A stretch of 35,066 nucleotides of DNA from an uncultured Eggerthellaceae bacterium (lineage in GTDB: Bacteria > Actinomycetota > Coriobacteriia > Coriobacteriales > Eggerthellaceae): contig CAIFEG010000023.1 in NCBI GenBank assembly GCA_903789415.1, positions 1 to 35,066 on the forward strand, written 5' to 3'. Positions 4,163 through 21,000 of the stretch are shown in pieces. The notes under the pieces are model-generated. The model was given only the letters and a program-made list of their open reading frames with translations, had not been told where the DNA came from and searched no databases. The translations under genes and the position numbers were made by a program. Position 1 is the stretch's first letter, and the number at the start of each line of letters is the position of its first letter.

Positions 4163-7153
4163 CTACTCATTCGCCAAACAGCAGTGACATACCACAATCT
4201 TTTTGAGTTCTGAGTGATTGAGAGCGCGCCCAATTCCCAAACCGTGGCTTGTTTTTGGGGCGACAGGTAAGATGATTTGTCCGTTTGTATCAAAGGTAAA
4301 CGGAGGATCACAAATATCGTGAGCAAAGTACGTGCTCGAGTCGCTTAAATCTCCTGGTAGATCGATATGGGGAAGGGTGCTAAACGCCGCGTGGACCGAC
4401 TTGGAAATTCCGTAGTCGTACATGCCACCCACCCACATGCCGATGCCGTGTGCGCGTGCCCATACATAGAAATCGAGCGCAGGAGCAATGCCGCCGGATT
4501 TCGCAAGCTTCATCACCACGCCGCGCAAGTGGGGATGGAGTTCCAGCTGGCGACGCAGTTCACGCGCATCATACCAACTTTCATCAAGGAAAATCGTCAT
4601 ATGGGGAAGTTTTTGCTGAAGTGCATCAAGACGGTCGAAAAGAGATGGGCCTTGAGGTTTTCCACCTTGGCATTCTATCTCTTGGGATTCTGCATTGTGA
4701 TTCTCTATTTTGCGATTATGCGAGCTAACTTTCTCTGAGCCGAATTTCACCACGAGTGGCTCTTCAATGTACACAACTCCCAGATCATCAAGTGCTTGCA
4801 TGGCCGGCAAGCATGTTGGATCAGTCTCGTCATAACTTTGGTTTGCATCAACCACAAGGGTGATATTGGGGTATGCCTTACGCACTGCACGTACAATTTC
4901 AACATCATGGCCGGGGCGAATTTTAAGTTTCACGCGTGAATACCCAGACTTTACCGCCGCATCCACATCTTTAAGCGTTGCATCAATATCTTCAATGCCA
5001 ATAACAACGCCGCCGTACGCAACGTAGAAGGTTACGGAATCCGTATCATGTTTTTCGCCATATGGTTTGCTAGATGCGGGATCAGATTCAGCTGCCCTAC
5101 GCGCGTAATCCCCAACACGTCCATGCAGCTCACGCGCGAGAGATACGCCTTTGATCTTGCAGTACAAATCCCACATCGCATTTTCGATGGCAGCACGGGC
5201 GAGCGGCAGACCATCTGCCAGATGCTCCTCTTCAAAGCCGCGGGACACCTCATCGGGATTCACAAAAACATGCTTTAGCACATAGGGGATCAGCGTATCC
5301 TTCAGCGTCTGTTCATCTTCCTTGAGCGTCTCGGGAAGATACCAATCAGTCGAAAACGCGACATCTTCACCGAGCCCCGTGCGACCCTGTGCATCATGAA
5401 CTTGCACAATCAATGATTTTCGCGATCTAACCAGCGTTTTCGCTGTTTGCATGGGATGTTTCATAGGCTGCTCGACACACCACAGATCAACTTTTCGCAC
5501 ATCAAGACGATGCTCCCACATGCGTTTTAACGCATTACGATCCGTCTTCCCAATTCCTTGGCGCGGAAACTGGTTAAGCACAAAGATGTGCTCAGGCATA
5601 TTAAGTTTTGAAAGATGCCCCTGCAGTGCTTCACGAACTTGTGCAGAAGCTAATGACGATTCACTTTGGTTTCGTTGCGCTTCACCGTGGCTTTTTGGCG
5701 CTTCACTATGGCTTCCAGGCACTTCGCTGTGGCTTCCAGGCACTTCGCTGTGGCTTCGTGCCGCTTCAACAAATGCCACGGGGCGACGCCCCCATCTGGC
5801 ATCTTTCACCCCAAACACATACGCATCACGTGCATTGGTGTATTGCAAAATTGCCAGCCGAATTTCTTCGGGGTATACATTTTCGCCGCCAGAGACAAAC
5901 ATATCGCCCGTGCGTTCGGCGATCACGATCCCATCGTTGCTCTCGCGTGCGGTGTCGCCCGTAAGAAATCCACCATCATCGGTAAATTGCGCTTTTGCAT
6001 TCAGATATCCATCAAACACTCCGGGACCTTTTACACAAAGAGCGCCCAATCCCGTTTGCGTATCGGGATGCAAGATCTTCAGCTCGTATCCCGGCGTCGC
6101 TTGCAACGCCAATGACGCAAGATTTCCATCCGCATCCAGCGAAACGCAGCGCGATGCAACCTGGCTGCATGTCTCCGTCATTCCATAGCTTGTATACACG
6201 CGAAGTCCCTGCTCAGCAGCTCGTTTGAGTACAAAGGGATTCGGCGCGGCACCACCTAAAAGCAAGCAATGATACTGCTTCAGTACCCCAGATGTGTCCG
6301 CATCCATCAAGCGCTGAAGTGTTTCGTTAACCACCGAAACGTGGGTTGCGCCATATGCGCGCGCGTCCCGGAGGATTTGCTCAGCGTGAAACCTCGAATA
6401 CAGAATAAACGGATTGTTATTCAAGATTGAACGAAACGCGATCTCGAGTCCGCCTACATGAAACATTGGTAGGGACAGCTGCCATACACCTTTCCCGGGC
6501 TCGTTTAAATATGCATTTGAAGACGCTGCTGCCCCGAGAAGCGATCGCCAGGGGAGTGCCGCCGCTTTCGGCTTGCCGGTGGTGCCTGAAGTAAACATCA
6601 CTACGCCGAGTGCATTGAGATCAAACAGATCAGGATTCCCGATTTCAGCAGTATTTGCGACCTCATTGCGATCGCCGGGCTGCCTGTCTTCCGCCAGCAT
6701 CCGATCTATATCATCTGCGTGCAGAATAGGCATCGACTGGGCGTCTGACCAGGGAAGTTCAGAAAGCCTTCGCTGCTTTTCCTCGGTCGATAAACGCGTG
6801 TTAAGTGCTACGACACTAAATCCCCCGATGGCCGCCGCGCACATCAGATACAACATTTGCGCGCAGGTTCCCATGTCACTTGCGCAGTGACCACCGCGCC
6901 CCACGCCCAAACGAGCAAGCGCCCATGCAAGTTTGCACGAGCGCTTCCACACTTCTTCATTTGTTATGGTTTTGTATGTCTGGTTTAAATTTGCGTTTTC
7001 GGTGTCTCTGTGTTCTGCGTCCCGTTCTGCGTCCGCACAGCTTGCATCCCATGCGCAAACCCCATCAGAATTTTCCCGCGCATGATCACGCAATATTTCA
7101 ACTAAATTGTTCAACAATAACCGCTCAGACCCATCGCACATTGCACAGTTCAA
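4163..7153 (-). CDS. menE-menC: fused o-succinylbenzoate-CoA ligase (MenE) and o-succinylbenzoate synthase (MenC)
   Basis: A 996-residue bifunctional menaquinone enzyme. Residues about 15-550 are an acyl-adenylate ligase: P-loop FTSGTTGKPK (187-196), YGMTET (323-328), TGD (398-400) and catalytic K536 in GIGKTDRN. Residues about 553-980 are an enolase-superfamily synthase: KLK (742-744), D769 and N771 in VVDANQS, E798 in IEEP, D857 in LDES, and K882. MenC makes o-succinylbenzoate and MenE activates it, so consecutive steps are joined in reverse order of reaction. Low-complexity insertions interrupt both halves: a four-copy heptad repeat at 467-494 and a polar segment at about 804-836. The start is uncertain: TTG at 7153 or ATG at 7141, neither with a good ribosome-binding site. 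It is the last gene of the menD-menH-menB run, 75 bp after menB. Confidence 0.93.
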   Translation of the reverse strand: MNCAMCDGSERLLLNNLVEILRDHARENSDGVCAWDASCADAERDAEHRDTENANLNQTYKTITNEEVWKRSCKLAWALARLGVGRGGHCASDMGTCAQMLYLMCAAAIGGFSVVALNTRLSTEEKQRRLSELPWSDAQSMPILHADDIDRMLAEDRQPGDRNEVANTAEIGNPDLFDLNALGVVMFTSGTTGKPKAAALPWRSLLGAAASSNAYLNEPGKGVWQLSLPMFHVGGLEIAFRSILNNNPFILYSRFHAEQILRDARAYGATHVSVVNETLQRLMDADTSGVLKQYHCLLLGGAAPNPFVLKRAAEQGLRVYTSYGMTETCSQVASRCVSLDADGNLASLALQATPGYELKILHPDTQTGLGALCVKGPGVFDGYLNAKAQFTDDGGFLTGDTARESNDGIVIAERTGDMFVSGGENVYPEEIRLAILQYTNARDAYVFGVKDARWGRRPVAFVEAARSHSEVPGSHSEVPGSHSEAPKSHGEAQRNQSESSLASAQVREALQGHLSKLNMPEHIFVLNQFPRQGIGKTDRNALKRMWEHRLDVRKVDLWCVEQPMKHPMQTAKTLVRSRKSLIVQVHDAQGRTGLGEDVAFSTDWYLPETLKEDEQTLKDTLIPYVLKHVFVNPDEVSRGFEEEHLADGLPLARAAIENAMWDLYCKIKGVSLARELHGRVGDYARRAAESDPASSKPYGEKHDTDSVTFYVAYGGVVIGIEDIDATLKDVDAAVKSGYSRVKLKIRPGHDVEIVRAVRKAYPNITLVVDANQSYDETDPTCLPAMQALDDLGVVYIEEPLVVKFGSEKVSSHNRKIENHNAESQEIECQGGKPQGPSLFDRLDALQQKLPHMTIFLDESWYDARELRRQLELHPHLRGVVMKLAKSGGIAPALDFYVWARAHGIGMWVGGMYDYGISKSVHAAFSTLPHIDLPGDLSDSSTYFAHDICDPPFTFDTNGQIILPVAPKTSHGLGIGRALNHSELKKIVVCHCCLANE
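5672..5755 (-). repeat. 4 x 21-bp in-frame tandem repeat inside menE
   Basis: Four consecutive 21-bp units encode SHSEVPG, SHSEVPG, SHSEAPK and SHGEAQR (residues 467-494 of the fusion protein). The first two are nearly identical at the DNA level. The insert sits in the C-terminal lid region of the ligase domain, before QVREAL, where MenE enzymes normally have a short loop. Confidence 0.9.
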
Positions 7154-7228: not shown

Positions 7229-8071
7229 TCATGGGAACTTAGGGAACTGCTTAAAGTCCGGATCGCGCTTTTCTTTAAACGCGTCGCGCCCTTCTTTTGC
7301 CTCATCGGTGGTGTAGAACAGCATCGTGGCATCGCCGCCGAGCTGCTGTAACCCAGCCAAGCCATCGGTTGCCGCATTCATGCTTGCTTTCATAAAGCGA
7401 AGCGCCGTTGGACTCCAACGCATAATTTGATGCGCCCAGTCCACACATTCGGCTTCCAGATCATCGAATGGGACTACTTTGTTCACGAGCCCCATGTCAC
7501 ATGCCTCTTGTGCAGTATATTGACGACACAAATACCAAATTTCGCGGGCCTTTTTCTGACCCACAACTGCCGCCAGATATCCTGCACCATACCCCGCGTC
7601 GAAACTGCCGACCTTAGGCCCGGTCTGGCCGAGCTTTGCCGTGTCAGCCGCAATCGAAAGATCGCAGATCAACTGCAGAATTTGTCCACCACCAATGGCA
7701 TAGCCGTTCACCATTGCAATGATAGGTTTGGGTACGATGCGCATTAGATGTTGCAGATCCAGCACATTGAGGCGGGCAATATTGTCCTCACCAACATAAC
7801 CGCCGTTACCCCGTTTTTTCTGGTCGCCGCCGCTACAGAACGCCTCGTCTTCGTGACGTCCACCATGATTCATGCCGGTCAGGATGATAACACCGATATC
7901 GGAATCATCGCGCGCGATTGAAAACGCATCAAACATTTCTTTTACCGTCAGTGGAGTAAAAGCGTTGCGCACTTGAGGACGATTAATGGTGATCTTTGCG
8001 ATGCCATCCATCGTCTCATAGACGATTTCCTTATATTCCTTCCCGCGCTTCCAGTTAAATTTTTCCGTCAT
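7229..8071 (-). CDS. menB: 1,4-dihydroxy-2-naphthoyl-CoA synthase
   Basis: A 280-residue crotonase-fold enzyme that cyclises o-succinylbenzoyl-CoA to DHNA-CoA in menaquinone synthesis. Diagnostic blocks are present and intact: [10 protein letters not shown] (79-88), the oxyanion-hole region GYAIGGGQ (123-130) and [12 protein letters not shown] (149-160), followed by [16 protein letters not shown]. This is MenB rather than a general enoyl-CoA hydratase. Length is normal. The ATG at 8071-8069 follows GGAGGAAAGG and overlaps the menH stop by 4 nt (ATGA), so the two are translationally coupled. It is followed after 75 bp by the menE-menC fusion, which uses its substrate pathway immediately upstream. 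Expression is presumably from a promoter upstream of menH or menD. Confidence 0.97.
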
Positions 8072-9087
8072 TCCCTTTCCTCCTGTTCCGCCGGCATGTC
8101 GTACGCATTCAAAAACGTACGCAAGCAGGCAACGTAGTCGTCGGGATTTTCCAGGTGCACATCATGACCACCTGCAATATACGAAACGCGAATTTTTGCA
8201 GCATGCGTTTCTGCTATTGATTGTGCCACACTCATATATTTCTGGTCAGACTTCCCCGCGATATAGCAAACAGGAACTCCCACCGATGCCAACAGCGCGC
8301 GATTTTCTGCTGCCGTTTTCATATGCTGAGCCCCTGCACTATCAACTGCCCACGATAGTTGTTGCTGATACGGCGCAAGCGAAAGGCGCGCTTGATGGAT
8401 TTCTTCGCGCATCTTTTGGGGAAGTGCACGCTGCGTCTGAAAGATGGGAAGTGCTTCCCAAAAATCGACAACATCGCTCATGGTTTCCGCATTGGCAATT
8501 CGAGCAGCAAACGTGCGATTGCGATCGGCATACGAGGAACGGTCTGCTTCGTTTTGAGGTCCCAGACCTGCACTTTCAAACGTAATCGTGGCTATATAGC
8601 GTGAAATCAGGCTGTTTTCTGGTGCACTTTTTACGCCCGCAGCATTCATGCTGGCCGCATTTGCGGTATCAGCGGCTGCCGCGGCTGTAGTGTTAGCGGG
8701 TGCCACATCGGTGGCATCCATGTCCTTCTCTTGTTTTCTCTGCAGACGATCCAACAGCGTAAGCACGATGCGTCCGCCCATCGAATAACCCACAAGATGT
8801 GGACGCAACAGCTCAGGCATTCGCATGTGCAACCACAAAAAGATCTCTCGAACACCGCGCGCGTAATCAATAAGCGCAGCATGCTCCTTGGACACCGGCA
8901 TCATGTTTGGCACCACAACCACGCGGCCATCAGATACAAGACTCTGCGCAACATTGTCCCAGCTATCAGCATCTTGCATAAAACCATGAAGTAAAATACA
9001 CGGACGCTTTTCAAGGCATGCTGTGGTAGGCATCCAGATACGCACATTCCATATGCCAATTTGCTTGTTAAACACCACAAAATCCAT
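8068..9087 (-). CDS. menH: 2-succinyl-6-hydroxy-2,4-cyclohexadiene-1-carboxylate synthase-like alpha/beta hydrolase
   Basis: A 339-residue alpha/beta-hydrolase that, by context, eliminates pyruvate from SEPHCHC, the MenD product. Visible elements are the oxyanion-hole LHGF (33-36), nucleophile elbow GYSMGG with S102, the acid D281 in GKSD, and H308 in [11 protein letters not shown] start at ATG 9087-9085 because GAAGGA lies 10 nt upstream; the ORF opens at ATG 9120, adding 11 residues, but that codon has only GTAGG abutting it. An Ala/Thr/Asn-rich insertion (about 123-157) sits after the first cap helix; canonical MenH proteins are 240-270 residues. The 3' end overlaps menB by 4 nt. It is 247 bp downstream of menD. 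MenH-type hydrolases are easily confused with other alpha/beta hydrolases, so the operon position carries much of the assignment. Confidence 0.85.
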
Positions 9088-9211
9088 GTCGTAGCTATCC
9101 TTCAGTTTTCTTTGACGCATCCTACGGTTGATAATGCGATCGAAGAATTGTGACTTTTTGTATTCATACCATCGTATACACCAAGCTCTTGCAAAGCACT
9201 TGATGTACGCG

Positions 9212-9334: not shown

Positions 9335-11215
9335 TTACTGATACGGCTTGTAACGGTCTTGAACTCCTTGAAGCGGAAGTTTAACCACTACCATATGGAT
9401 ACCGGGCTTCCCAAGCGTTTCGATATATGCGTTTTCAAAATTTTCAACGCTCTGAACATTCACCGCATCGACGTGATATCCCGCGGCAAGCGATACAAAA
9501 TCGGTATTTTGAGGCGTCAAAAACAGTCGCTCGAAATAGTCGTCGGCAGATTTCTGGGGGAGTATGTCGAAAATTGCGCCACCATCATTGTCCAAAAGCA
9601 CAATGCTTATTGAGGGCATCGCACAGCCGCGAGCTGCACGAATCTGCATTTCGTTTTGAAACGCGAGCCCGTTTGCGTCATGTTGCATTGCCAAATCGCC
9701 AATCAACAGCGTGGTTTGTTTAAAGTTTTGACCTGCACCAATCGCGCTTGAAACCGTTCCGTCTATCCCATTCAGGCCACGATTACACAACAAGGTGAAC
9801 TGCTTATTCGACTTTACATAAAACGTGTCCAACGCACGAATGGACATGCTGCTTGCGCTAAATAAAAGCGAGTGTTCGGGGATGAGTTCCAAAAGCTTAC
9901 GTACATAGGCACCTTCAAGCTCATTTTTGTTTGATGCGCCCGCAACCGAGATAATTTTTCCACGTTGCGCATCATTCGCTGAAATCCACTGCTGTGCAAA
10001 TGTTTTGTTTGCAACAGGCGCTTTGTTTGCGGCAGGTGCTTCGTTTACATCAAGCAAGCTGCCAACAAACCCCAGGCTCCTGCATCGAATGAATGCCGAA
10101 GTGCACGAATTCATATCGCGTGTATCCCGCATGTCGACCACGATTTCTTGCGCCCCACAAGCGCCAAGCTCAATTCCGCATCCTTTCGAAACGGGCCATC
10201 GTCCAAAACGAACAATGACCTGGGGGAGTAGTTCGGGATGTGACCCATCAAAAAGATTGTCGTAGTTGTCGATCACCAAAGGATCATCCACACAACGCAG
10301 CCCCGAAAGCGGATCTGCGAGTAGTGGGATCTGATACATCTGAGCAAATGCAACCATCTGCTGCGCTTGCTCTGCCGTTTCCGCACATCCTTCTCCGCAT
10401 ACGGCGAGCACCCGCTTGTCTGCGATTTCATTCAGAAACGAATGAACCGTGCCTTCAGAAAGCTTTGGTTCTGCCATAGAAATGGTTGGGAGTGTATTTG
10501 TCTGTGCTTCTTGATGGCGTGGGTTTTCGTTCCTTTCTTCTTCAGCCTTTCGCTTTTCGGAACTTTGATGCCCTCTGCCCATTGTTGGCTTGAGCGGATT
10601 ATCAAACGGAAAATTCGCATGTACCGGACCCGCATCACTGCTGCGAACCCCTGGAGCGCTTCCTTCGGCATTTATCACCAGCTCAAGGGCCATTTGGCGA
10701 GCATACGAAAGAATGGCGGGATTCGTGTCGGGAAGCGGCATCTGCACAAATTTTTTCACATGATCGCCGAATATCTTTAGTTGGTCACACGTTTGTGGCG
10801 CACCCACTCCTTGTAGGCGCGCGGGCCGATCACTCGAAAGAAAAATCAGTGGTACGCGGCTGCTCTCGGCTTCCAAAACCGCAGGCATCCAATTTCCCAC
10901 CGCTGTACCGCTTGTGCAGATCACGCAAACAGGTTTATTCTTCGCTTTTGCCAAACCGAGTGCAAAAAACGCGGCGCTGCGTTCGTCAACATCCACGTAG
11001 ACATCGCCAAACCGCTCAAAGGCCATCATTGAAAGGGATGTCGAACGCGATCCTGGACTCACTACTACATCGCACACACCACAAAGCTGAAGTTCTTCAA
11101 AAAATGCATCAAGAAATACCGCTGTGGCATCAGGAATCGAAACGCCTTGAGTATCGGTCGGTATATGCTCTTGCGTATCAGTGGGTAGCTGTTTATGCGA
11201 TGACGTTTCACTCAT
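9335..11215 (-). CDS. menD: 2-succinyl-5-enolpyruvyl-6-hydroxy-3-cyclohexene-1-carboxylate synthase
   Basis: A 626-residue thiamine-diphosphate enzyme that condenses 2-oxoglutarate with isochorismate, the committed step to menaquinone. Canonical motifs are intact: SPGSRST (53-59), the cofactor-activating E79 in DERSAAFFALGLAK, SGTA (102-105), SSDRP (127-131), a C-N-R-G-L-N-G-I-D-G block, the Mg/ThDP segment GDLAMQHDANG (506-516) and LDNDGG (541-546). The protein is somewhat longer than usual (about 560-590) because of an N-terminal tail with a duplicated PTDTQ and short polar inserts (about 213-240, 390-405). The ATG start has only a weak AGGT site. It is divergent from the GNAT gene and upstream of menH. 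A degenerate paralogue lies at 13253-16051. Confidence 0.96.
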   Translation of the reverse strand: MSETSSHKQLPTDTQEHIPTDTQGVSIPDATAVFLDAFFEELQLCGVCDVVVSPGSRSTSLSMMAFERFGDVYVDVDERSAAFFALGLAKAKNKPVCVICTSGTAVGNWMPAVLEAESSRVPLIFLSSDRPARLQGVGAPQTCDQLKIFGDHVKKFVQMPLPDTNPAILSYARQMALELVINAEGSAPGVRSSDAGPVHANFPFDNPLKPTMGRGHQSSEKRKAEEERNENPRHQEAQTNTLPTISMAEPKLSEGTVHSFLNEIADKRVLAVCGEGCAETAEQAQQMVAFAQMYQIPLLADPLSGLRCVDDPLVIDNYDNLFDGSHPELLPQVIVRFGRWPVSKGCGIELGACGAQEIVVDMRDTRDMNSCTSAFIRCRSLGFVGSLLDVNEAPAANKAPVANKTFAQQWISANDAQRGKIISVAGASNKNELEGAYVRKLLELIPEHSLLFSASSMSIRALDTFYVKSNKQFTLLCNRGLNGIDGTVSSAIGAGQNFKQTTLLIGDLAMQHDANGLAFQNEMQIRAARGCAMPSISIVLLDNDGGAIFDILPQKSADDYFERLFLTPQNTDFVSLAAGYHVDAVNVQSVENFENAYIETLGKPGIHMVVVKLPLQGVQDRYKPYQ

Positions 11216-11243
11216 TGTTTGACCTGCATTTTCATAACAGTGG

Positions 11244-11273
11244 TTGATATTATTTAAACGATTCTCTTATTAT
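11244..11273 (+). promoter_or_regulatory. promoter of the ElaA-like GNAT gene
   Basis: TTGATA (11244-11249) and TATTAT (11268-11273) are separated by 18 bp. The predicted start near 11281 leaves a leader of about 38 nt before the ATG at 11319. The promoter lies in the short divergent gap shared with menD. Confidence 0.55.
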
Positions 11274-11318
11274 GCTAAATAAGATTTGACCGAATACAAA
11301 GGTAAAAAGGTAGAAATT

Positions 11319-11795
11319 ATGTCGGACGAAACAGAACTTATGTGGTTGGATAAAACATTCGATGACTTATCGAACAGAAATATTTTCGACATGTATAAAT
11401 TACGAGCCACCGTATTTAACGGAGAGCAACAGACCACATATCCTGATCCCGATAATGAGGACCTTATTGCGCACCATGTTCTGGCGTACCAAGTTTCGGC
11501 TGATGGACACCAAAAAAAACTTGTTGCATATGCACGTTATTTTCAAACTGGCTCTGAGGTAACGCTTGGACGCGTTGTTATACCTGAAGATTTTCGGGGA
11601 AAGCAGCTCAGCAAGGTGTTAATTCGTCACATTTTGGATGGCATAAAAAGCACGTATCCTCACCGAAAAATCGTCATCCATTCGCAGTTTTATATCAGGA
11701 ATCTCTATAAGGAATTTGGATTCGTCGAGGTTGGAGATCCGTTTATAGAAGCGGAACGCAAGCATATTTTAATGGAGCATGAACCTCTTCAATAA
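11319..11795 (+). CDS. ElaA-family GNAT acetyltransferase
   Basis: A 158-residue acetyl-CoA-dependent N-acyltransferase. The ElaA signature is clear: V-F-N-G-E-Q-Q near 32-38, then Y-P-D-P-D-N-E-D (41-48), the acetyl-CoA pyrophosphate loop region LGRVVIPEDFRGKQL (83-97), and the C-terminal NLYKEFGF (128-135). ElaA substrates are not known. I start at ATG 11319 because AAAAGG lies 8-9 nt upstream; the open frame extends to TTG 11286 without support. The gene is transcribed against the men cluster and splits it in two, with its own promoter. Codon use and composition look like the neighbours. Nothing in the sequence ties it to menaquinone synthesis. No clear terminator was seen in the 177-bp gap after it. 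Confidence 0.88.
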   Translation: MSDETELMWLDKTFDDLSNRNIFDMYKLRATVFNGEQQTTYPDPDNEDLIAHHVLAYQVSADGHQKKLVAYARYFQTGSEVTLGRVVIPEDFRGKQLSKVLIRHILDGIKSTYPHRKIVIHSQFYIRNLYKEFGFVEVGDPFIEAERKHILMEHEPLQ

Positions 11796-11972
11796 AGTGA
11801 TATAGAGTAACCACGAGCTATTTCAATAGGGTATAAAGGGCATAACCAGAGCATAAACAGAAACAGCTATGCCCACACAGGTGTACCGACAGAGGTACAT
11901 CGAAAGAGGCAGACCTGCAGAAATTTTAATAGTCTATGATCTGGGTAAACGCGATCGTCTAAATAATTAAAT

Positions 11973-13244
11973 TCACGCTGTCGGTTCAAAACCGGAGAGT
12001 ATCGCTTCAAGCTTCATGTCGATTTCTTCATACTCTTCATCAGCAACACTACCGTCGACAATGCCACAACCTGCATAAACCCAGCCATCTTGACCGTCAA
12101 ACACACCGCTTCGAATCGCAACACTAAATTCGCCGTCACCATTTGAATCAACATACCCTGCAGGACCACCAAAGAATCCTCGGTTAAACGACTCCAGCCG
12201 GCGAATAAGCATCAACGATTCACCTACTGGCTGGCCCGAAAGAGCAGGCGTTGGATGTAGTTGATTGACGAGATCTTGCAACGTGTGCCCCTGCAATAAT
12301 TTCGCCGTGACTGGCGTGTATAAATGCTGCACATTTGAAAGACGTTTTATACGTGGCGTCGAGGGAACGTTGACGTTGTAGCATATACGTCCCAGATCCT
12401 GACGCATAAAGTTAGCCACAATCGCATGCTCATGACGATTCTTTTTATCATGGAGCAGATCGTTCGCTAAACGCGAACGTTCCTCTTCACTTGATCCCAC
12501 ACCGCATGTTCCCGCAAGGCACATCGTCTGCACGTTGTCCTGGTATTTTCTGACTAAAAGTTCCGGCGTACACCCGATAAAGAAAATATCATCATATCGG
12601 TACATAAACACGCAACCAACATCGGGACCTTCGATCAAATTGATCAGCATCTGCGTGCTCGTAAAGGGTTGCTGCGCATGGATCCTGCAACGACGCGCAA
12701 GAACAATTTTGTCCAGCTGACCAGCCTCTATTGCATGAAGGCCACCAGCAACGGCTTCTTTCCAAACATCTTTGGAATCGCGCGTAAGTGTATAGGGAAT
12801 ATCCTTGAGACTATAGCTTTTTTGGTTTTTAATACGAGCAACGAAACGTTCTACACGACCCGTATACACCGGACCTAAGCTGTTTACTTGCAGAAACGAT
12901 TTCCCGTCTTGTTCTATCAGCACAATCTCTGGGAACATTAACCCAAGTTTTGGAAACGCACGAAACAACTCATCAGCAGGTTTAGGATTGCTTGCATCAA
13001 AACGCTGAAAGCAAAACGAATATGCAGGAAAATCTATGAGTCCTTCAACTTCATAATCTAAGTCAGTTAAGTGTTGAACCGCAATACAACGTCCAAGCCC
13101 TATTAGACGAATTGGCTGCGTGACCTGGCTTAATGGTTGTTTCTCATAGAACACAAATTGGTCGGTAAATTCGTTTTGCAGCGAACAAAAAGCGTGCACA
13201 ATATCGCTGCCAATTTCTTGGGTGTATGTGTAGAGCTTTGCCAA
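11973..13244 (-). CDS. menF: isochorismate synthase
   Basis: A 423-residue chorismate-binding enzyme that isomerises chorismate to isochorismate, the first menaquinone step. Motifs include K179 in LDKIVLARR (the base that activates water), GCTPELLV (224-231), LAGTCGVG (243-250), the E272 region in NRHEHAIV, LHPTPALSGQPV (329-340), FFGGPAGY (357-364) and the Mg-binding acidic cluster A-D-E-E-Y-E-E (401-407). EntC/DhbC siderophore enzymes look similar; the men context decides. The start is TTG (13244-13242), with AGGTG 7 nt upstream. That site overlaps the end of the menD-like gene, whose stop is only 8 bp away, so translation is probably coupled. The gene is separated from menD by the divergent GNAT gene. 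Confidence 0.94.
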   Translation of the reverse strand: MAKLYTYTQEIGSDIVHAFCSLQNEFTDQFVFYEKQPLSQVTQPIRLIGLGRCIAVQHLTDLDYEVEGLIDFPAYSFCFQRFDASNPKPADELFRAFPKLGLMFPEIVLIEQDGKSFLQVNSLGPVYTGRVERFVARIKNQKSYSLKDIPYTLTRDSKDVWKEAVAGGLHAIEAGQLDKIVLARRCRIHAQQPFTSTQMLINLIEGPDVGCVFMYRYDDIFFIGCTPELLVRKYQDNVQTMCLAGTCGVGSSEEERSRLANDLLHDKKNRHEHAIVANFMRQDLGRICYNVNVPSTPRIKRLSNVQHLYTPVTAKLLQGHTLQDLVNQLHPTPALSGQPVGESLMLIRRLESFNRGFFGGPAGYVDSNGDGEFSVAIRSGVFDGQDGWVYAGCGIVDGSVADEEYEEIDMKLEAILSGFEPTA

Positions 13245-13252
13245 AATAACAC

Positions 13253-16051
13253 CTAAAACAATGGGGGATTTTTTGGCAAACGAATATCGATCACATGAAC
13301 CCCTGGTTCATGAGCAAACACCGGATACACACGATGTAATTCGTGATTTGTCATCACATGGCGATATGATGCTCCCATGCCAATGCATACGTGCTTTAAA
13401 TCAATACATGCACCTGAATCATTCATACGACCAGAATCGGTGTGAGGAACTCCTGGAAGGGAAGACACACGATCATCTCTGTCGAGACACACCACCACAA
13501 TCGATGGTACGGGCTTCTTATCACGATTTGCGCGTGCACTTATTTCAAGCTGAATCGCAATTGCATTCATATCCTGCGCAAACTGGTTCGCATCCAATAG
13601 CACCGTGGTATGCGCGGAGCATTGTGCAGCACCAAATGCCGTAGAAAGCGTTCCCGACTGCCCATCTAAGCCATGATTTGCAAGCACATCTAAACGGTGT
13701 TCACCACGTTCAAGCATTTCATCCATCATCTGTAGTGGCGTGCCCGATCCACAGAACAGCGTCGAATCGTCGGGAATAAGCTTTGCCAGAGTATCAACAT
13801 ATCCGAGCTCGAGATCATTGATATCATCACGTTCGCGGACGCCATGAAGTTCGATACGTTGTTCTTGATTCGCCTTCTGCCAGGCCTTCGCGTAGGCCTC
13901 ATCTGCAGCTTCTTTCGCCTGCACACTCGCCATGGTTGCAGCAAACACAACAGGGGTGCTACGAACAAAAATCTCGCGGGATGAACCTAAAACAGAGCCA
14001 GTCATTCCCACAACAATGCGGAATGCATTGGTTGAACGCAGACGACGACACGCCTCTTCTGAAACGGGCCGTTGTCCCATCTGGATAATCACATCAGGGT
14101 TTGCGACCGAATTTGATTCGAGTACCGCATTGTATGCATCGATGATCATGGGGTCGTCGATGTTACGCAGACCCGAAAGCGAATCAGCCAAAAGAGGCAC
14201 ATTACAACGGTGCGCAAACTCGATGATCGAATCGGCATCAGTCGGCGAGCTGCAAGTTCCTTCGCCGCAAAACGCGACGACACGAACACGATGCAAGATC
14301 GAGAAAAGGCCGTTCGCATTGCGGGGGACAAAACCTTGACCAGCAACAACGGTTGGTGGAAGCGAGCTTTCCGAGATCTTCGTCGATCTCATGCTCACAC
14401 CCATCGTATCCTTGAGGGTAAACTCAATATAGACGGGACCACCTGCACATGCGCGTGCACCTGGGATAAGTCCATGCGCCTGCACACATGCCTCAAGCGC
14501 CTTTTGTCGACCGATATCCTCAGATGCTTCTTTCGAAGGCAGCACGGGCATTGCAATAGAGTATTTCGCTACTTCACGGAGTAATTGCGCGTGCGTATTG
14601 ACGAACGCTGCAGTATGCCCGTCAATAGACGGACGGTTTGCTGCAATAAAAATCAGGGGCACGTGATCTGCAGATGCTTCAAGCATGGCGGGAATCCAAT
14701 TTGCCGCATCACCGTTTCCATCACAGATCACGACGACAGGATTCGCGGTGGTTTTCGCTAGCCCAAGCGCAAAAAATGCAGCGGAACGTTCATCGCTGAT
14801 TGCATAGGCATCACCAAAATGCTCGAGTGCTTTGACAACCAATGAATGACAAAGCGGACCGTCGCTGACCACTGCTTCAGTTACTCCACAACGCACAAGC
14901 TCAGAATAAAATGAGTCAATAAAAGTGGTCGTTGCACGAACATCGGGCTCCGATGCCCCACTGAGCGGAAGAAGATCGCGATCAAATGGACGCAGGCGCA
15001 TTTTTTCGTCGGGAAAGCCATCTCCGAAATGGGTAACCGCAGGTTGCGCACCTGTAGGTTGTAATTGTGATGCGGTAACCCGTGGTTGTGCTGCGGTAAC
15101 CCGCGGTGAAACGTTCGGCACGTGCGGATGTAATCCATTTTCCGCGCTATTTTCTAACGAGGTATGAGACGAAATACCTGATTTATTCCCATGTGCAGCA
15201 TGTGAGTTGCGCTTTTCATCCGTGGCTTGATATTTTGCACCGTTTGTTTTGACGTTGCTACTAACGTTGCTGGGTTTTGTTGTGACATTACGGGATTTTG
15301 AGCCGTTCACAAAAGCGGATTCCGAGTTGCTTGAGCTTCCCGGTGTTGCTTTGTAAGCATTTGCATCGCGGGTATCTTTATGTGTTGATGCATTTGGTAA
15401 CGAAGAAGCAGTGCTTACGTTCTGCTTTGATGCTTTCTGTTTGAGATGGTCCTTTGCAACATTGTCTTGAGAGCCCTGCGCAAACATTGCTACGGCGTCC
15501 TGATGAGACGATGCATGTTGGCGATGGGCAGAGTTAAAGATTTGCCGTGAGTCAATATCTTGTTTTTCACCGCTCTGAGAACCGGCATGATTTGAATGTG
15601 TAGACGGATTTTGTGCCGTCGTCGTGTTTGTATTTGTAGTGACTGGCTTAGATTCAGAAATGTTTCCTAAGGTGCTGTTCGCAGCCGATGCGTGGCTAAC
15701 AGCCTCAATAGGGTTTGTGGTTGCTGCATCATTGCCCACCGTTCCTACAGATGGGTGCACATCTTTGCTGATAGGTGATTCTTCCTGAGATGCCACAGGT
15801 GTAACATCGACGACATGTTCTTCGACAGAAGTGCGTTGTTTAGCTTGTTTCGCTTCGCGCTCTTCTTGAGCCTTTCGTGCAGCACGCCCCGCCGCCTTAA
15901 CTTCTTGGAGCGCTTCTTGTGCATCCATACTTTGTTGGACTCTTTCAGCTTGCTCTTTCTCACGTTGCTGTTCTTTTTCTTGTTCAGCCTGCAGGCGATT
16001 TGGCCCGCGCTTTGGCATGGGAACGGTTTCTTTTTTATGAATAGAAAACAT
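13253..16051 (-). CDS. MenD-like pseudoenzyme with long coiled-coil/disordered N-terminal extension
   Basis: A 932-residue protein. Residues about 372-932 align over their whole length with MenD, including DERSAAFFALGLAK (420-433, nearly identical to the true MenD), P-L-L-A-D-S-L-S-G-L-R and the H-G-L-D-G block (793-797). The catalytic signatures are gone: SPGSRST is SDGPLCHS (396-403), CTSGTA is CDGNGDA (443-449), GDLAMQHDAN is LDANQFAQDMN (815-825), and LDNDGG is LDRDDR (856-861). Mg/ThDP and isochorismate binding should therefore be lost. Residues 13-74 are a charged Gln/Glu/Lys/Arg helix, probably a coiled coil; 75-370 are Ser/Asn/Thr/His-rich and presumably disordered. I start at ATG 16051 because AGGA lies 9 nt upstream; the frame opens at 16093. 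The frame is intact, so it is not a decayed pseudogene. It is coupled to menF, 8 bp downstream. Confidence 0.85.
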   Translation of the reverse strand: MFSIHKKETVPMPKRGPNRLQAEQEKEQQREKEQAERVQQSMDAQEALQEVKAAGRAARKAQEEREAKQAKQRTSVEEHVVDVTPVASQEESPISKDVHPSVGTVGNDAATTNPIEAVSHASAANSTLGNISESKPVTTNTNTTTAQNPSTHSNHAGSQSGEKQDIDSRQIFNSAHRQHASSHQDAVAMFAQGSQDNVAKDHLKQKASKQNVSTASSLPNASTHKDTRDANAYKATPGSSSNSESAFVNGSKSRNVTTKPSNVSSNVKTNGAKYQATDEKRNSHAAHGNKSGISSHTSLENSAENGLHPHVPNVSPRVTAAQPRVTASQLQPTGAQPAVTHFGDGFPDEKMRLRPFDRDLLPLSGASEPDVRATTTFIDSFYSELVRCGVTEAVVSDGPLCHSLVVKALEHFGDAYAISDERSAAFFALGLAKTTANPVVVICDGNGDAANWIPAMLEASADHVPLIFIAANRPSIDGHTAAFVNTHAQLLREVAKYSIAMPVLPSKEASEDIGRQKALEACVQAHGLIPGARACAGGPVYIEFTLKDTMGVSMRSTKISESSLPPTVVAGQGFVPRNANGLFSILHRVRVVAFCGEGTCSSPTDADSIIEFAHRCNVPLLADSLSGLRNIDDPMIIDAYNAVLESNSVANPDVIIQMGQRPVSEEACRRLRSTNAFRIVVGMTGSVLGSSREIFVRSTPVVFAATMASVQAKEAADEAYAKAWQKANQEQRIELHGVRERDDINDLELGYVDTLAKLIPDDSTLFCGSGTPLQMMDEMLERGEHRLDVLANHGLDGQSGTLSTAFGAAQCSAHTTVLLDANQFAQDMNAIAIQLEISARANRDKKPVPSIVVVCLDRDDRVSSLPGVPHTDSGRMNDSGACIDLKHVCIGMGASYRHVMTNHELHRVYPVFAHEPGVHVIDIRLPKNPPLF

Positions 16052-16104
16052 AGCTGATTGTCCTGTTATCTGCTTAATTATTGATATATACATCTAACGC
16101 CGGC

Positions 16105-16121
16105 GTGTATTCCATATACAC
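16105..16121. promoter_or_regulatory. inverted repeat upstream of the menD-like gene
   Basis: GTGTAT (16105-16110) and ATACAC (16116-16121) are perfect 6-bp arms around a 5-bp spacer, 54 bp upstream of the chosen start codon. A second small palindrome, CGCCGGCG, abuts it. The position suits an operator for the menD-like/menF transcript, but no -35/-10 pair is convincing. Confidence 0.35.
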
Positions 16122-16158
16122 CTAAGCATATTTCTTACACAGTATTATCAAGCAATTT

Positions 16159-17376
16159 TTAATCTGTGGGCGTGAGAACTGGTGTCGATTCATCACCCTC
16201 ACGGATTGCTTGTTCACTACTGCTCACACCAACATCAGGAACAACGGTTGATGGATCACCACCATCATCGACTACTTGCATCATTTGTTTAAGGGTCGGC
16301 ACATCGCATTGGACATACGAAACACCATCAACGTCCACCATAGATGAAGGCAGCATAGCGGAGTATGTCGTTACATCACTATCCTGGAAATCCCGCGCAT
16401 AGGAAAGAATATCTGAGGCCGACATATCGGTCTGCACGTATTTCGCAACATTATCTACCGCCTGCGCTAACTGAGGAGCAGAGGTCGACTGTAATTTCGT
16501 AACGAGCGCTTCCATAAGCAACCGTTGGTCCTCTGTACGCTGGAAATCGCCATTCGCAAATGAACGCGAGCGTGCAAAAATCAGCGCTTGCTCGCCATTG
16601 AGATGTTGCATGCCTTGTGGAACCTGCCCGCCTGCATTGGCATCATTGATTGCCATCGGCACATCTACATCAACTCCACCAAGCGAATCAACCAGTTCAA
16701 CCGTTGCATCAAAGTCAATTGATGCATAGTGTGAAATATGGATGCCTAAAAGCTCATCGGCAGCCTTTACCGCACCAGCTGCACCATCAAATTGGTATGC
16801 CGCATTGAACTTCTGAACGCCATACCCAGGGATTTCAATAGCGGTATCACGAGGAATAGAAATGAAGGTAAGTTGTTTTGAATTCGGATCAACGCGAACA
16901 ACGATATTCGTATCTGAACGCCCCTGGTCATCACCGCGAGAATCTGATCCAATAAGCATGACATAAAAGGGTTGATCATTTTGAACTGGTTCAAGGGCTT
17001 GTTGAAGCTCTTGTTGCTGTTCAGGGTCTTGAATTGTCATCTTCGAATTTAGATCATTCATATACCAAGCATATGCGGCCACAGCGCAAACGACTAAGCA
17101 TAATAAAATAATAAGAACGATAAGGATTATTCGTCTTGCGCGATGATGTTTACGATCATGCCTGTTGGTATATTTCGCATTATTGCGCGAGCATGATACT
17201 AATTCGGAACTCGCCGCGCTTGCAGAATGTGAGTTTTGATGAGATGAGTTAACAGAAGAAGAGACACTCCCAGAGCTTGCAGGAATAAACCCACCAACTT
17301 GCGTTTGTTTATCCTGTTTTTCAGCGTTCGAAGCATGTGCGCCATGTGAAGTTCGATTACGCTTGCCCAAGGCCAT
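16159..17376 (-). CDS. LytR-CpsA-Psr (LCP) family cell-wall polymer ligase
   Basis: A 405-residue membrane-anchored enzyme. The layout is a Ser/His/Asn-rich cytoplasmic tail (1-80), one transmembrane helix (about 82-104), and an extracellular LCP domain. The LCP domain shows IGSDSRGDDQGRSDT (142-156), ISIPRDT (172-178), K-F-N-A-A-Y (189-194) and ARSRSFANGDFQRTEDQR (268-285), the conserved Arg/Asp residues that bind the polyprenyl-pyrophosphate substrate. LCP proteins attach teichoic acids, polysaccharides or glycoproteins to peptidoglycan or proteins. A Ser/Asp/Thr-rich tail follows. The start is ATG 17376, directly after AAGGAGG with ideal spacing; an upstream in-frame ATG at 17433 lacks support. 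It is monocistronic: its own promoter lies near 17400, and the menD-like gene downstream is separated by 107 bp. Confidence 0.93.
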   Translation of the reverse strand: MALGKRNRTSHGAHASNAEKQDKQTQVGGFIPASSGSVSSSVNSSHQNSHSASAASSELVSCSRNNAKYTNRHDRKHHRARRIILIVLIILLCLVVCAVAAYAWYMNDLNSKMTIQDPEQQQELQQALEPVQNDQPFYVMLIGSDSRGDDQGRSDTNIVVRVDPNSKQLTFISIPRDTAIEIPGYGVQKFNAAYQFDGAAGAVKAADELLGIHISHYASIDFDATVELVDSLGGVDVDVPMAINDANAGGQVPQGMQHLNGEQALIFARSRSFANGDFQRTEDQRLLMEALVTKLQSTSAPQLAQAVDNVAKYVQTDMSASDILSYARDFQDSDVTTYSAMLPSSMVDVDGVSYVQCDVPTLKQMMQVVDDGGDPSTVVPDVGVSSSEQAIREGDESTPVLTPTD

Positions 17377-17398
17377 ATGCCCTCCTTGAATTTCACTT

Positions 17399-17407
17399 AT
17401 TGTAGCA
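17399..17407 (-). promoter_or_regulatory. extended -10 promoter of the LCP gene
   Basis: On the minus strand TGCTACAAT (17407-17399) matches an extended -10 (TGnTAtAAT) and lies 22 bp before the LCP start codon. No good -35 is visible, as is usual with extended -10 promoters. Confidence 0.45.
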
Positions 17408-17516
17408 TCAGTAAGATTTGATGTTCTTTCCAAACATGTCTCATCTTGTGCAAAACAAAACCATATTCGATTTTAATTAGATCTCTTGTTTTGCTATAAG
17501 TGAAAATTATTGTACA

Positions 17517-18079: not shown

Positions 18080-21000
18080 TTAAATACTTCTTATGAGACC
18101 AGCGATGAATTTGACAGCTTGGTTCATCTTCGAAGGAGAGACATTTTCTTGAGTATCATCAGCCTCACCCATAAGCGCGGGTTTACCATGCTCCATTCCG
18201 ACTAGGCTCATGCCTTGCAAATGATATTTGTGTGCGATTGAAACAATACTATTCTTCCAGGTCAATTTACCTTGATGCGTAATGTTGACTCCGCTGTCCT
18301 GTGCTGCTTTGCTCACGAGACGCTTCATTCGAGAAGAAGCCTTAACAGAAGAAATTGCACCCTCTTCATCAATGTACGTTAACTCACCGGCACCAAGCGC
18401 TTCGAGATTGACAATAATTGATCCACGCAGCTCATCAGCGTGGCGAGCTAAAAACGCTTTAGAACCACTATTGTTTGAAAGCTCACTTCCAAGTGCCACA
18501 AACCAAACTTCCGTATTCAGGGAAGGGCGCATTTGATAAATGTCTTCCTGCTCTTCGTTTTTAATACGCTGGATATCGTCTTCGACTTTTTGCTCATCTT
18601 CCTGAAGAACTTTGTCATTCAACTCATTATCAACAGGAATATTTTGTTGGTCTTGTTCTTGATGGGTTTGCTGACTTCCTTGGTCGTTTGCTTCACGATT
18701 TACATTTGCTCTGTCAGATTGAGGACCCTTCTGAATAGGCATTCGTCCGGTTGGATCATAGTTGCCTTCGGATTGGGGAATATATTGAGACATGGGCTCG
18801 GTAGAATCTGCTATATGAGCATCGTCATAATCTGCATGTTCGTTTGAATATGCACCACCATTCCATGAGTCAGCCTCATGTTTTCCTTTGGTCTGTTTTT
18901 TATTCGTTCGGGAATCCGGATTGTCATATTCCGTTGATGTTTGATCTTCCTCATAACCATCAGACAAATCATCAGGACGGAAGCTTTCCCAGCCACCACG
19001 CTCGGCCCCAACTTTAGTGGGGTTGTAATCTTCGTCTACATCGAGCCACTTATCTGCAGAAACTTCTTCTTCCTCTTCCCGTTTTTGCTCTCTCCGCTGT
19101 CTTAGTTTGCTGAACAACCCTTTATGTTCTTTAGGGATATTCATATACCCAGCTCCAGCATAGGCACCTGTTTCGGTGGTGTTTTCTTCAAAGGTTGATT
19201 CATCCGCATCATCAACATACATTTCTGTTGGTTTCATACCTTTTACCAAATCATCAGTAACAGGTTTAAACGCGCCCGTTGATCCTACGGCTTGGAATGA
19301 ACCAGTCAGGCTTACTTTCTCATTTGAGCCTGCCGTATCTTGTGAATTAGTCTTTTGAGAGGTCACAGAAGGCACATTAATTGATGGTCTGCTTTCTGGC
19401 TGAGCTTGTGATGATTGTGCTGCTGTTGTGTTATGTGCTGAAGGAATATCAGTAACTGATTTTTCGTTAGTAATTCTGCCACTCATTGTTGGTAAATTTG
19501 CTAAATTGGTTGGTTCAATTTTCGCAACATGTATTGCTGGAGAATTTCTTCTTGACGATTGTTGTGAAGACGCCTGAGAAGCTCCTGACCGTGCAATAGT
19601 CCTATTTGGTTGATTTGCGTTTGCAGCTGCCGAATTATCCGTAGTATTCAGACTTATTTTTGGAATAGCTCCGGATTCTAAAGGCGTATGACGTTGGGAA
19701 ACATTGCCTCCATTTTGCATATCACTAATAGGTGCACGTTGTTTATAAGACTCGGGACGATCGTAGCCTGTAGATTGCGCATTGGCGCTTGGTGTTGACT
19801 CAACAATTTTCCTTACCGTTGCGCGTGCTTCTTCTTGAGTCAATGTAGTTTTTGCCTTTGCGGCTGCTGCGTTATTTGCGGGGTAGTTTTTTTGATTTTG
19901 GCGAGAAGAATTAATCCGTGCATTCGGTTGCGTTTTTTCCTGGCCATCTACTTCCGATACGCGTGGAATTACTTTACCAATATTGGAATGAATTTCAGGT
20001 TTATTCGAGACAGGCATACCCATAGTGCTCTGGTTTTCCGACTGTTCAATTTCATCTTCTTGTCTTGAAACTGGTGTATTGGTTTCATCAAACACCACCC
20101 GATTGCTGGTCTGCTGAGGCGCATGGTGCAACTCTCTCGATGGCCGACTTTGTAACTTGCGTGCCTCGGCATTTGCATCATTTTCAACAGAGTAATTTGT
20201 CACTTTTTCACTCACGTCAATGTGTGGCATTGCTACGGTTGCATCACGGTTTGCAGGTTCTGAGCTTGTTCCTTCTTCCGCATCCTCTTCTGCAATAGGC
20301 ATTCCTGTGAATGCATCACGTGGTGAAGAGTCCTTCGAGACGTAGTCCATTGACTGAGTTTCCTCATTATCCTCTTCTGAAAGATTATTTAATTCCTCAT
20401 CGTTAAATGCATCATAGTCACCATTGCCACCGTTATTTCTATGTGACAGACCAGATAATCTCTTTTTTATTGACTTGAATGGATGTACCGATGCGACTTT
20501 GTGCGAGATATTTGAAACTTCATCCGTAAAGGTATTGCTTTGGGTCGCATCCATATCTTCGTATGAATCGTACATATCGCTACGATTCTGATCTTCTTGC
20601 TCTAATTGAGTAGGCTGATTTATGGATGCCGAAGCATTCTGATAGGAAGAGGTTTGTACCGTAGATGATTGAGTTTGTGAAGCTTGAGGTTGCCTCGAAA
20701 CTTTACCTTGTTGGTTTTGCTGCGGAGTTGGCGAGCCCTGCAATATTTCGGTTTCACGATCGCGGTCTGCCTTTAACTGGTCATTAAGATATTGACTTCT
20801 TAATGTATCCACAGGAGTTCCGTCTTGGTTTACATGAAAATCACGATTAGTAGCAGGCTGCTGGCCCAATGTTTCACGTGAAACATTTGAGTCTTGAGAG
20901 CCATTAATTACGGATGTATTTTGTGTTGATGTTTCACGTGAAACATTCTGAGATTGTCTGCGAGAATCTGTGTCCAAAGGCACATTGTGGTTAGAGGGGT

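Follow-up and report, generated by a model that had tools for sequence, protein, structure and literature searches.

Why should a menaquinone (men) gene cluster hold, in addition to a MenD with intact catalytic motifs, a second MenD homologue in which these motifs are gone? The question arises in a 35,066-nucleotide (nt) stretch of DNA (hereafter, the window) from an uncultured Eggerthellaceae bacterium (GenBank assembly GCA_903789415.1, contig CAIFEG010000023.1), in which a minus-strand gene encodes a 364-residue low-complexity tail followed by a 568-residue homologue of MenD (Table 1). An initial annotation described the gene as a degenerate paralogue of MenD that selection appears to preserve. 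Our analyses largely agree: the product is very probably a maintained MenD that would be unable to catalyze alone, the gene is most likely a maintained pseudoenzyme gene, and we favor the reading that its product may be a regulatory or scaffolding partner. Below, we refer to it as the dead copy and to the MenD with intact motifs as the true MenD.

The dead copy matches MenD throughout its 568 C-terminal residues (about 560 had been annotated). BLASTP aligned it with the true MenD of the window with 203 identical residues in 597 columns (34%; E = 2e-92), and its core aligned with Bacillus subtilis MenD (2x7j) with an E value of 2e-43. Against the menD model TIGR00173, it scored 201.4 bits, which is below the cut-off of 244.2, compared to 370.5 bits for the true MenD. 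The stretch annotated as almost identical in the two copies is DERSAAFFALGLAK, with identity over 14 residues.

We mapped onto both copies the residues named for B. subtilis MenD in excerpts of PMC2914249, together with a few from excerpts of papers on the Staphylococcus aureus and Listeria monocytogenes enzymes. In B. subtilis numbering, the dead copy keeps Glu54, Arg106, and Leu493. It has Pro at Ser31, Leu at Arg32, Glu at Lys299, Gly at Ser405, Thr at Met406, Gln at Arg409, His at Arg428, Asp at Asn431, Gln at Ile433, Ala at Asp457, Asn at Leu458, and Gln at Ser459, and it also lacks Asn484, Gly486, Ile489, and Phe490, for which the exact partner residues vary with the alignment (Leu or Arg for Asn484; Arg or Asp for Gly486). 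One alignment gives the mobile-loop Gln (117) no partner in the dead copy, another pairs it with Phe, and the TSGT loop of MenD reads DGNG. The motifs SPGSRST, GD...N, and NDGG, reported as replaced in the initial annotation, indeed read SDGPLCH, LDANQFAQDMN, and LDRDDR. The true MenD keeps all mapped residues except Ser459 (Ala). As a reference set in which to read the motifs, we used 30 true MenDs of the family, i.e., those of 29 relatives and the true MenD of the window. The dead copy keeps 3 of the 17 cofactor- or substrate-binding residues that are invariant in this set, compared to 51 of 80 other invariant residues (Fisher p = 8e-4; p = 0.002 to 0.004 at looser thresholds). Finding the same substitutions in a working MenD would speak against degeneration; they are absent from all 30 true MenDs in the alignment. 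These alignments show that the dead copy has lost nearly every Mg-, thiamine diphosphate (ThDP)-, 2-oxoglutarate-, and isochorismate-binding residue.

In MenD, which is a dimer of dimers, the active sites form between two subunits (excerpts of PMC2914249), and it had been suggested that the Glu kept in the PYR-like domain could complete a working site together with the PP domain of the true MenD. The equivalents of Glu54 and Arg106 are kept, and the DERSAAFFALGLAK helix is identical in the two copies. However, the PYR half that the dead copy would contribute has lost Ser31, Arg32, the mobile-loop Gln, and the TSGT loop, and according to the same excerpts, alanine mutants of Arg32 and Arg106 in B. 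subtilis MenD are impaired, with a 40-50 fold increase in the Km for isochorismate and a decrease in kcat. In the opposite pairing, both side-chain Mg ligands as well as Ile433, Arg409, and Arg428 are lost. A mixed dimer would have one site with a dead PP domain and one with a damaged PYR domain; therefore, an extra working site is unlikely, and the suggested mixed site, weakened in both directions, is in our view highly improbable.

As annotated, the reading frame is open over 932 codons (ATG at 16051), without stops or frameshifts. When the menD gene of the window was evolved neutrally to 34% identity, none of 200 simulations remained free of stops (mean, 20 stops; minimum, 9), while 1 of 200 and 6 of 200 did so at 80% and 90% identity, respectively. 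Long neutral decay is therefore excluded, and a recent loss of role is still compatible with the simulations.

Divergence of the dead copy differs between the three domains. The mean identity of the dead and the true copy, respectively, to nine MenDs of the same clade was 0.41 and 0.69 in PYR, 0.38 and 0.385 in TH3, and 0.33 and 0.55 in PP. The differences, true minus dead copy, with intervals from a column bootstrap, were +0.28 [0.21, 0.35] in PYR, +0.004 [-0.06, 0.06] in TH3, and +0.23 [0.15, 0.30] in PP, and this pattern recurred against 46 distant MenDs. Mean tree paths to the clade were 3.2 (dead) and 0.7 (true) in PYR, 2.4 and 2.9 in TH3, and 10.7 and 1.4 in PP. Similarly, the dead and the true copy keep 60 and 101 of 109 clade-conserved columns in PYR and 35 and 72 of 80 in PP, but 39 and 43 of 57 in TH3 (p = 0.53); of the 39 TH3 columns in which all nine clade MenDs agree, they keep 27 and 33 (p = 0.18). 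Thus, PYR and PP, the domains that build the active site, are clearly more diverged in the dead copy than in the working enzyme; TH3 has lost some residues too, but over the entire domain its divergence does not exceed that of the true MenD. Loss is also uneven along the chain: helices 57-71, 143-162, 437-447, and 464-479 keep 11/12, 8/8, 5/5, and 5/5 clade-conserved residues, segments 116-130, 457-462, and 407-415 keep 0/6, 0/5, and 1/6, and other segments are intermediate. This domain-resolved erosion with an ordinarily diverged TH3 is an addition of the present study.

A decaying remnant without function would account for the loss of the catalytic motifs, the occurrence in one species, and the low-complexity tail, and both the simulations and the domain pattern are compatible with a recent loss of role by a formerly useful copy. 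Against such a remnant stand the absence of stop-free neutral runs, the ordinary divergence of TH3, and the GC content of the three codon positions (0.62, 0.45, and 0.44), which resembles that of the true menD and of menF. We consider this explanation extremely improbable; the annotated claim that selection maintains the gene is thus supported, a recent loss of role not being covered.

An AlphaFold2 (AF2) model of the MenD-like core, built on a 48-sequence alignment of MenDs, had a predicted local distance difference test score (pLDDT) of 87.9 and a predicted template modeling score (pTM) of 0.91, compared to 89.5 and 0.92 for the true MenD. Confidence in the dead copy was low at 111-120 (pLDDT 65) and at 491-520 (70, 57, and 61), i.e., in the active-site parts that form the mobile loop and the closing region, for which the true MenD has 83-85; both models were also weak at the linker between domains I and II and in two further loops. 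In searches with Foldseek and VIA, MenD structures ranked first for the model of the dead copy, with VIA Z values of 31.8-39.6 (2x7j, 3lq1, 9e9b, and 7tin), including 39.6 for L. monocytogenes MenD (3lq1; 2.4 A over 507 residues) and 37.1 for B. subtilis MenD (2x7j). The three-domain fold is predicted over the whole core, and the model supports, rather than proves, that the dead copy has the full MenD fold. Such a shell might run a different, ThDP-free chemistry, an idea in line with the long intact open reading frame (ORF) and the strongly diverged PP domain. However, no new conserved residues were recognizable from the single sequence, and the closing loops are of low confidence in the model; a different catalyst therefore seems improbable to us.

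The tail of the dead copy, which begins MFSIHKKETVPM, has parallels on intact enzymes. The intact MenDs of ten relatives (L034-L043) have N-terminal disordered tails of 46-315 residues with a T-x-P-[I/M/L] motif near the start. Excluding the near-duplicate L036, which also has the motif, it lies within the first 45 residues in 9/9 independent relatives and within the first 25 in 8/9, while shuffled tails are expected to give 0.21 and 0.11. The dead copy also has the motif among its first 45 residues, and the true MenD of the window has ~30 residues ahead of the core and lacks the motif. In a search with the tail start of the G050 MenD, four of seven genomes (G050 and three others) had matches, which sit on MenD save for one chance-level match with a stop (E = 0.44). 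In the genomes of the ten nearest relatives, G050, G047, and G111 among them, MenD has intact motifs and is encoded directly downstream of menF; each has one MenD over the family cut-off among the matches listed, and three of the ten are just 70-76% complete. Tail and catalysis thus appear to be split between two genes in the window, which, judged from the sequences, is a second addition of this study. The helix IDQxIIEAAxxAIARER, present in several relatives' MenD tails, is not visibly shared by the dead copy. Speculatively, phosphorylation might occur on the threonine of the T-x-P-[I/M/L] motif; FHA proteins are present in the genome, but we found no link between them and the tail of the dead copy. 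Separately, a small zinc-ribbon FHA protein (L068, contig C16) has a TTQEFKPI segment that we take to resemble the GarA/OdhI phospho-motif, and the adjoining gene is presumably indolepyruvate oxidoreductase-like.

The dead copy is 36-41% identical to the relatives' MenDs (45% in one partial stretch), and identity to the closest relatives of full length does not exceed 41%. In the trees, both copies fall inside the tail-bearing clade, the dead copy on a very long branch, which supports that the dead copy descends from a MenD of that clade. In a tree of TH3 only, the dead copy grouped with L034, L035, L037-L039, and L041 (69/83) and the true copy with L040, L042, and L043 (91/89). Because the copies group apart by TH3, either an ancient duplication or a transfer between members of the clade may be their source.

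We propose that the dead copy is a noncatalytic subunit of MenD, to which we give an even chance. It would join the true MenD in a mixed dimer or dimer of dimers in which the true MenD does the catalysis, it would be coproduced with MenF by translational coupling, and it would supply in trans the N-terminal tail that relatives carry on MenD itself. The tail might tether the MenD/MenF step to some partner or receive a signal; roles would have been split after duplication, with one copy keeping catalysis and the other the tail and scaffold. In ThDP enzymes, the helices that flank the cofactor cleft lie at the subunit interface. These helices are kept in the dead copy, and TH3 is ordinarily diverged; therefore, pairing with MenD is plausible. 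Feedback control by 1,4-dihydroxy-2-naphthoate (DHNA) offers a possible consequence. At the DHNA pocket positions Arg98, Lys283, and Lys309 (S. aureus numbering, from excerpts of PMC9835592), an alignment read by eye places His, Gln, and Ser in the dead copy and Arg, Arg, and Thr in the true MenD. The pocket is generally poorly conserved, and L. monocytogenes MenD, which has Gln at the first position, is weakly inhibited (excerpts of PMC12312563). Since the pocket residues are replaced in the dead copy, a mixed oligomer could differ in feedback. More tentatively, MenD of this lineage may be a hetero-oligomer of catalytic and dead chains; the latter, without the DHNA pocket, would provide a disordered regulatory tail in trans and might set feedback sensitivity. 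MenD catalyzes the committed step of menaquinone synthesis, and research on how DHNA regulates the enzyme through feedback is active, with an interest in MenD as a drug target (excerpts of PMC9835592 and PMC12421875). If correct, this step would be controlled in a second way, through a dead MenD subunit. Duplication would then have turned a homo-oligomeric ThDP enzyme into a natural hetero-oligomer, two of its domains having been released from a constraint that the third largely retains.

Alternatively, the dead copy might act apart from MenD, with TH3 and the shell reused for binding, either of a metabolite or of another protein, for example, MenF. This would fit with TH3 being the one domain no more diverged than in the true MenD, with the apparent coupling of the gene to menF and not to menD, and with the extreme divergence of PP, and a homodimer would explain the conserved helices as well. 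However, the helices of PYR and PP that are kept next to the cofactor cleft (11/12, 5/5, and 5/5) resemble a retained subunit interface, and we found no new conserved pocket or motif. We regard this alternative as rather unlikely.

Several observations weigh against the dead copy being a tail-bearing subunit of MenD. The gene is known from one genome, and the MenD alignment behind the AF2 model favors a MenD fold. TH3 keeps 10/19 noncatalytic residues invariant in the 30 MenDs, compared to 25/37 in PYR and 16/24 in PP (a set that includes the true MenD, which scores full retention by construction), and its loop 319-328 keeps 0/5 clade-conserved residues. The true MenD is diverged where B. subtilis MenD makes its dimer-of-dimers contact, and complementary loss was not significant: 19/30 clade-conserved residues lost by the true MenD are kept in the dead copy (p = 0.25). 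For the tail, homology consists of one short motif, position, and composition; the pattern was defined after reading the tails, which makes the odds from shuffling optimistic; and the G050 tail start found no match in this genome, G047, or G111. Finally, the dead copy sits on a long branch and is therefore placed with little certainty in the trees, and a sister relation of the two copies is neither shown nor rejected (approximately unbiased test, p-AU = 0.214). Accelerated evolution of the true MenD was considered as a sign of coevolution and rejected, as long branches are likewise seen for MenF and for the concatenated men genes of this genome.

No second dead MenD copy was found in 138 genomes of the family; in 395 genomes of the order, among the matches listed and with the MenDs of four genomes that are present as pieces only left out; in samples of the class (396 genomes, matches at E 1e-80 or better) and the phylum (396 genomes, E 1e-50 or better), limits at which a far-diverged copy would be missed; or in the best 80 of 549 relatives in the named genome collection, from which near genomes may be missing. 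The four taxonomic sets overlap, and the MenDs beyond the 30 were judged by score alone. The initial annotation had proposed to look for the same paralogue beside menF in related genomes: the genomes searched contain no frameshifted remnant, and no intact copy either. Ten second MenD-family proteins from eight genomes of the order were rejected as dead copies and are, as cofactor motifs are kept, other ThDP enzymes: they retain DERS and, unlike the dead copy, the GD...N segment and the NN of the Mg loop, have no other men gene in the examined flanks, and are about 23-38% identical to the MenDs of the window over local stretches. Two of them (L056 and L057) are 961-residue ORFs with intact cofactor motifs, ~380 residues ahead of the enzyme part (without a Pfam match in L057), and no other men gene in the examined flanks. 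Our searches of the open-license literature yielded no account of a catalytically dead paralogue of MenD.

The minus-strand genes are arranged as LCP gene, dead copy, menF, true menD, menH, menB, and a menE-menC fusion, with a plus-strand GNAT gene between menF and the true menD. The true MenD had been placed next door; it lies in the same men region but is not adjacent, as menF and the GNAT gene intervene. Counted from the first ATG, the ORF of the dead copy spans 13253-16093 (946 codons); the ATG at 16051 is the likelier start, being preceded by AGGA at a distance of 9 nt, whereas 16093 has no comparable sequence at a suitable spacing. The menF start (TTG, 13244) is 8 nt beyond the stop of the dead copy, and a Shine-Dalgarno-like AGGTG overlaps this TAG stop and ends 5 nt before the TTG. 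This arrangement suggests translational coupling to menF, as annotated. Because menF and the oppositely oriented GNAT gene separate the dead copy from the true menD, the men genes likely form two transcription units. A scan of 11000-16300 for promoters and terminators gave 3 promoter-like sites, compared to 8.8 in shuffles, and was not used as evidence. The genome (1.88 Mb; 96% complete) is the sole one of its genus in the data set. Its one match to a MenA-type prenyltransferase (62.3 bits) is below the family cut-off; therefore, the last part of the menaquinone pathway is not proven.

Table 1. Coordinates of the dead copy, its parts, and neighboring genes in the window
Feature	Position	Strand	Remarks
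MenD-like gene (dead copy)	13253..16051	-	932 codons; start ATG 16051; 34% identical to true MenD (597 alignment columns)
N-terminal low-complexity tail	14960..16051	-	364 residues; 39% S/T/N/Q/H
T-V-P-M start motif (T-x-P-[I/M/L])	16016..16027	-	common to relatives' MenD tails
PYR-like domain, eroded	14390..14959	-	core residues 1-190; boundary approximate
SDGPLCHS, replacing SPGSRSTx (substrate loop)	14843..14866	-	from alignment
Retained Glu435 (946-residue frame)	14789..14791	-	Glu54 of B. subtilis MenD; within DERSAAFFALGLAK
TH3-like central domain	13835..14389	-	core residues 191-375; boundary approximate; divergence not above that of true MenD
PP-like domain, most eroded	13253..13834	-	core residues 376-568
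LDANQFAQDMN, replacing GD...N Mg/ThDP segment	13565..13597	-	Asp457 to Ala
LDRDDR, replacing NNxGG loop (Mg ligand)	13469..13486	-	
menF (isochorismate synthase)	11973..13244	-	TIGR00543, 288.7 bits, over cut-off
GNAT acetyltransferase gene	11286..11795	+	splits men cluster
True menD	9335..11215	-	TIGR00173, 370.5 bits; catalytic motifs intact; no long tail
menH	8068..9120	-	TIGR03695, 120.9 bits, below cut-off of 208.55
menB	7229..8071	-	TIGR01929, over cut-off
menE-menC fusion	4163..7153	-	TIGR01923, 268.8 bits (below cut-off of 330.15); TIGR01928, 243.7 bits (over cut-off)
LCP gene	16159..17433	-	upstream of MenD-like gene

The fusion of menE and menC is also found at most relatives' loci; the genes are separate in one relative (G375). 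Further upstream on the minus strand, 18080-22858 encodes a 1592-residue protein with a match to M28 peptidases (PF04389), both ends of which match relatives; the ~900 residues between look low-complexity, and the corresponding ORFs of relatives are also very long.

How does the dead copy compare with known systems? It resembles MenD, the SEPHCHC synthase (TIGR00173; 2x7j, 3lq1, 9e9b, and 7tin), in homology, in its predicted three-domain fold, and in keeping the catalytic Glu54 as Glu435, but it differs in lacking the Mg ligand side chains, Arg32, Arg409, Arg428, and Ile433, in scoring below the family cut-off, and in its 364-residue tail. The MenDs of the nearest relatives carry the tail in cis on an intact enzyme, whereas here the tail is on the dead copy and the live copy is without it. 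Other parallels are the trypanosome AdoMetDC prozyme (PMC5201418) and the deoxyhypusine synthase paralogue DHSp (PMC3663545), which excerpts of these papers describe as catalytically dead paralogues that activate their partners; in both cases, a dead duplicate stands beside a live enzyme that works as an oligomer. The dead copy shares with them the loss of catalytic residues, a predicted retention of the fold, maintenance of the gene by selection, and, judged by motif, an active paralogue in the same genome. It differs in being bacterial, in belonging to the ThDP family, in its apparent coupling to another enzyme of the pathway, and in its disordered tail, and here both a complex with MenD and an activation of MenD would be hypothetical.

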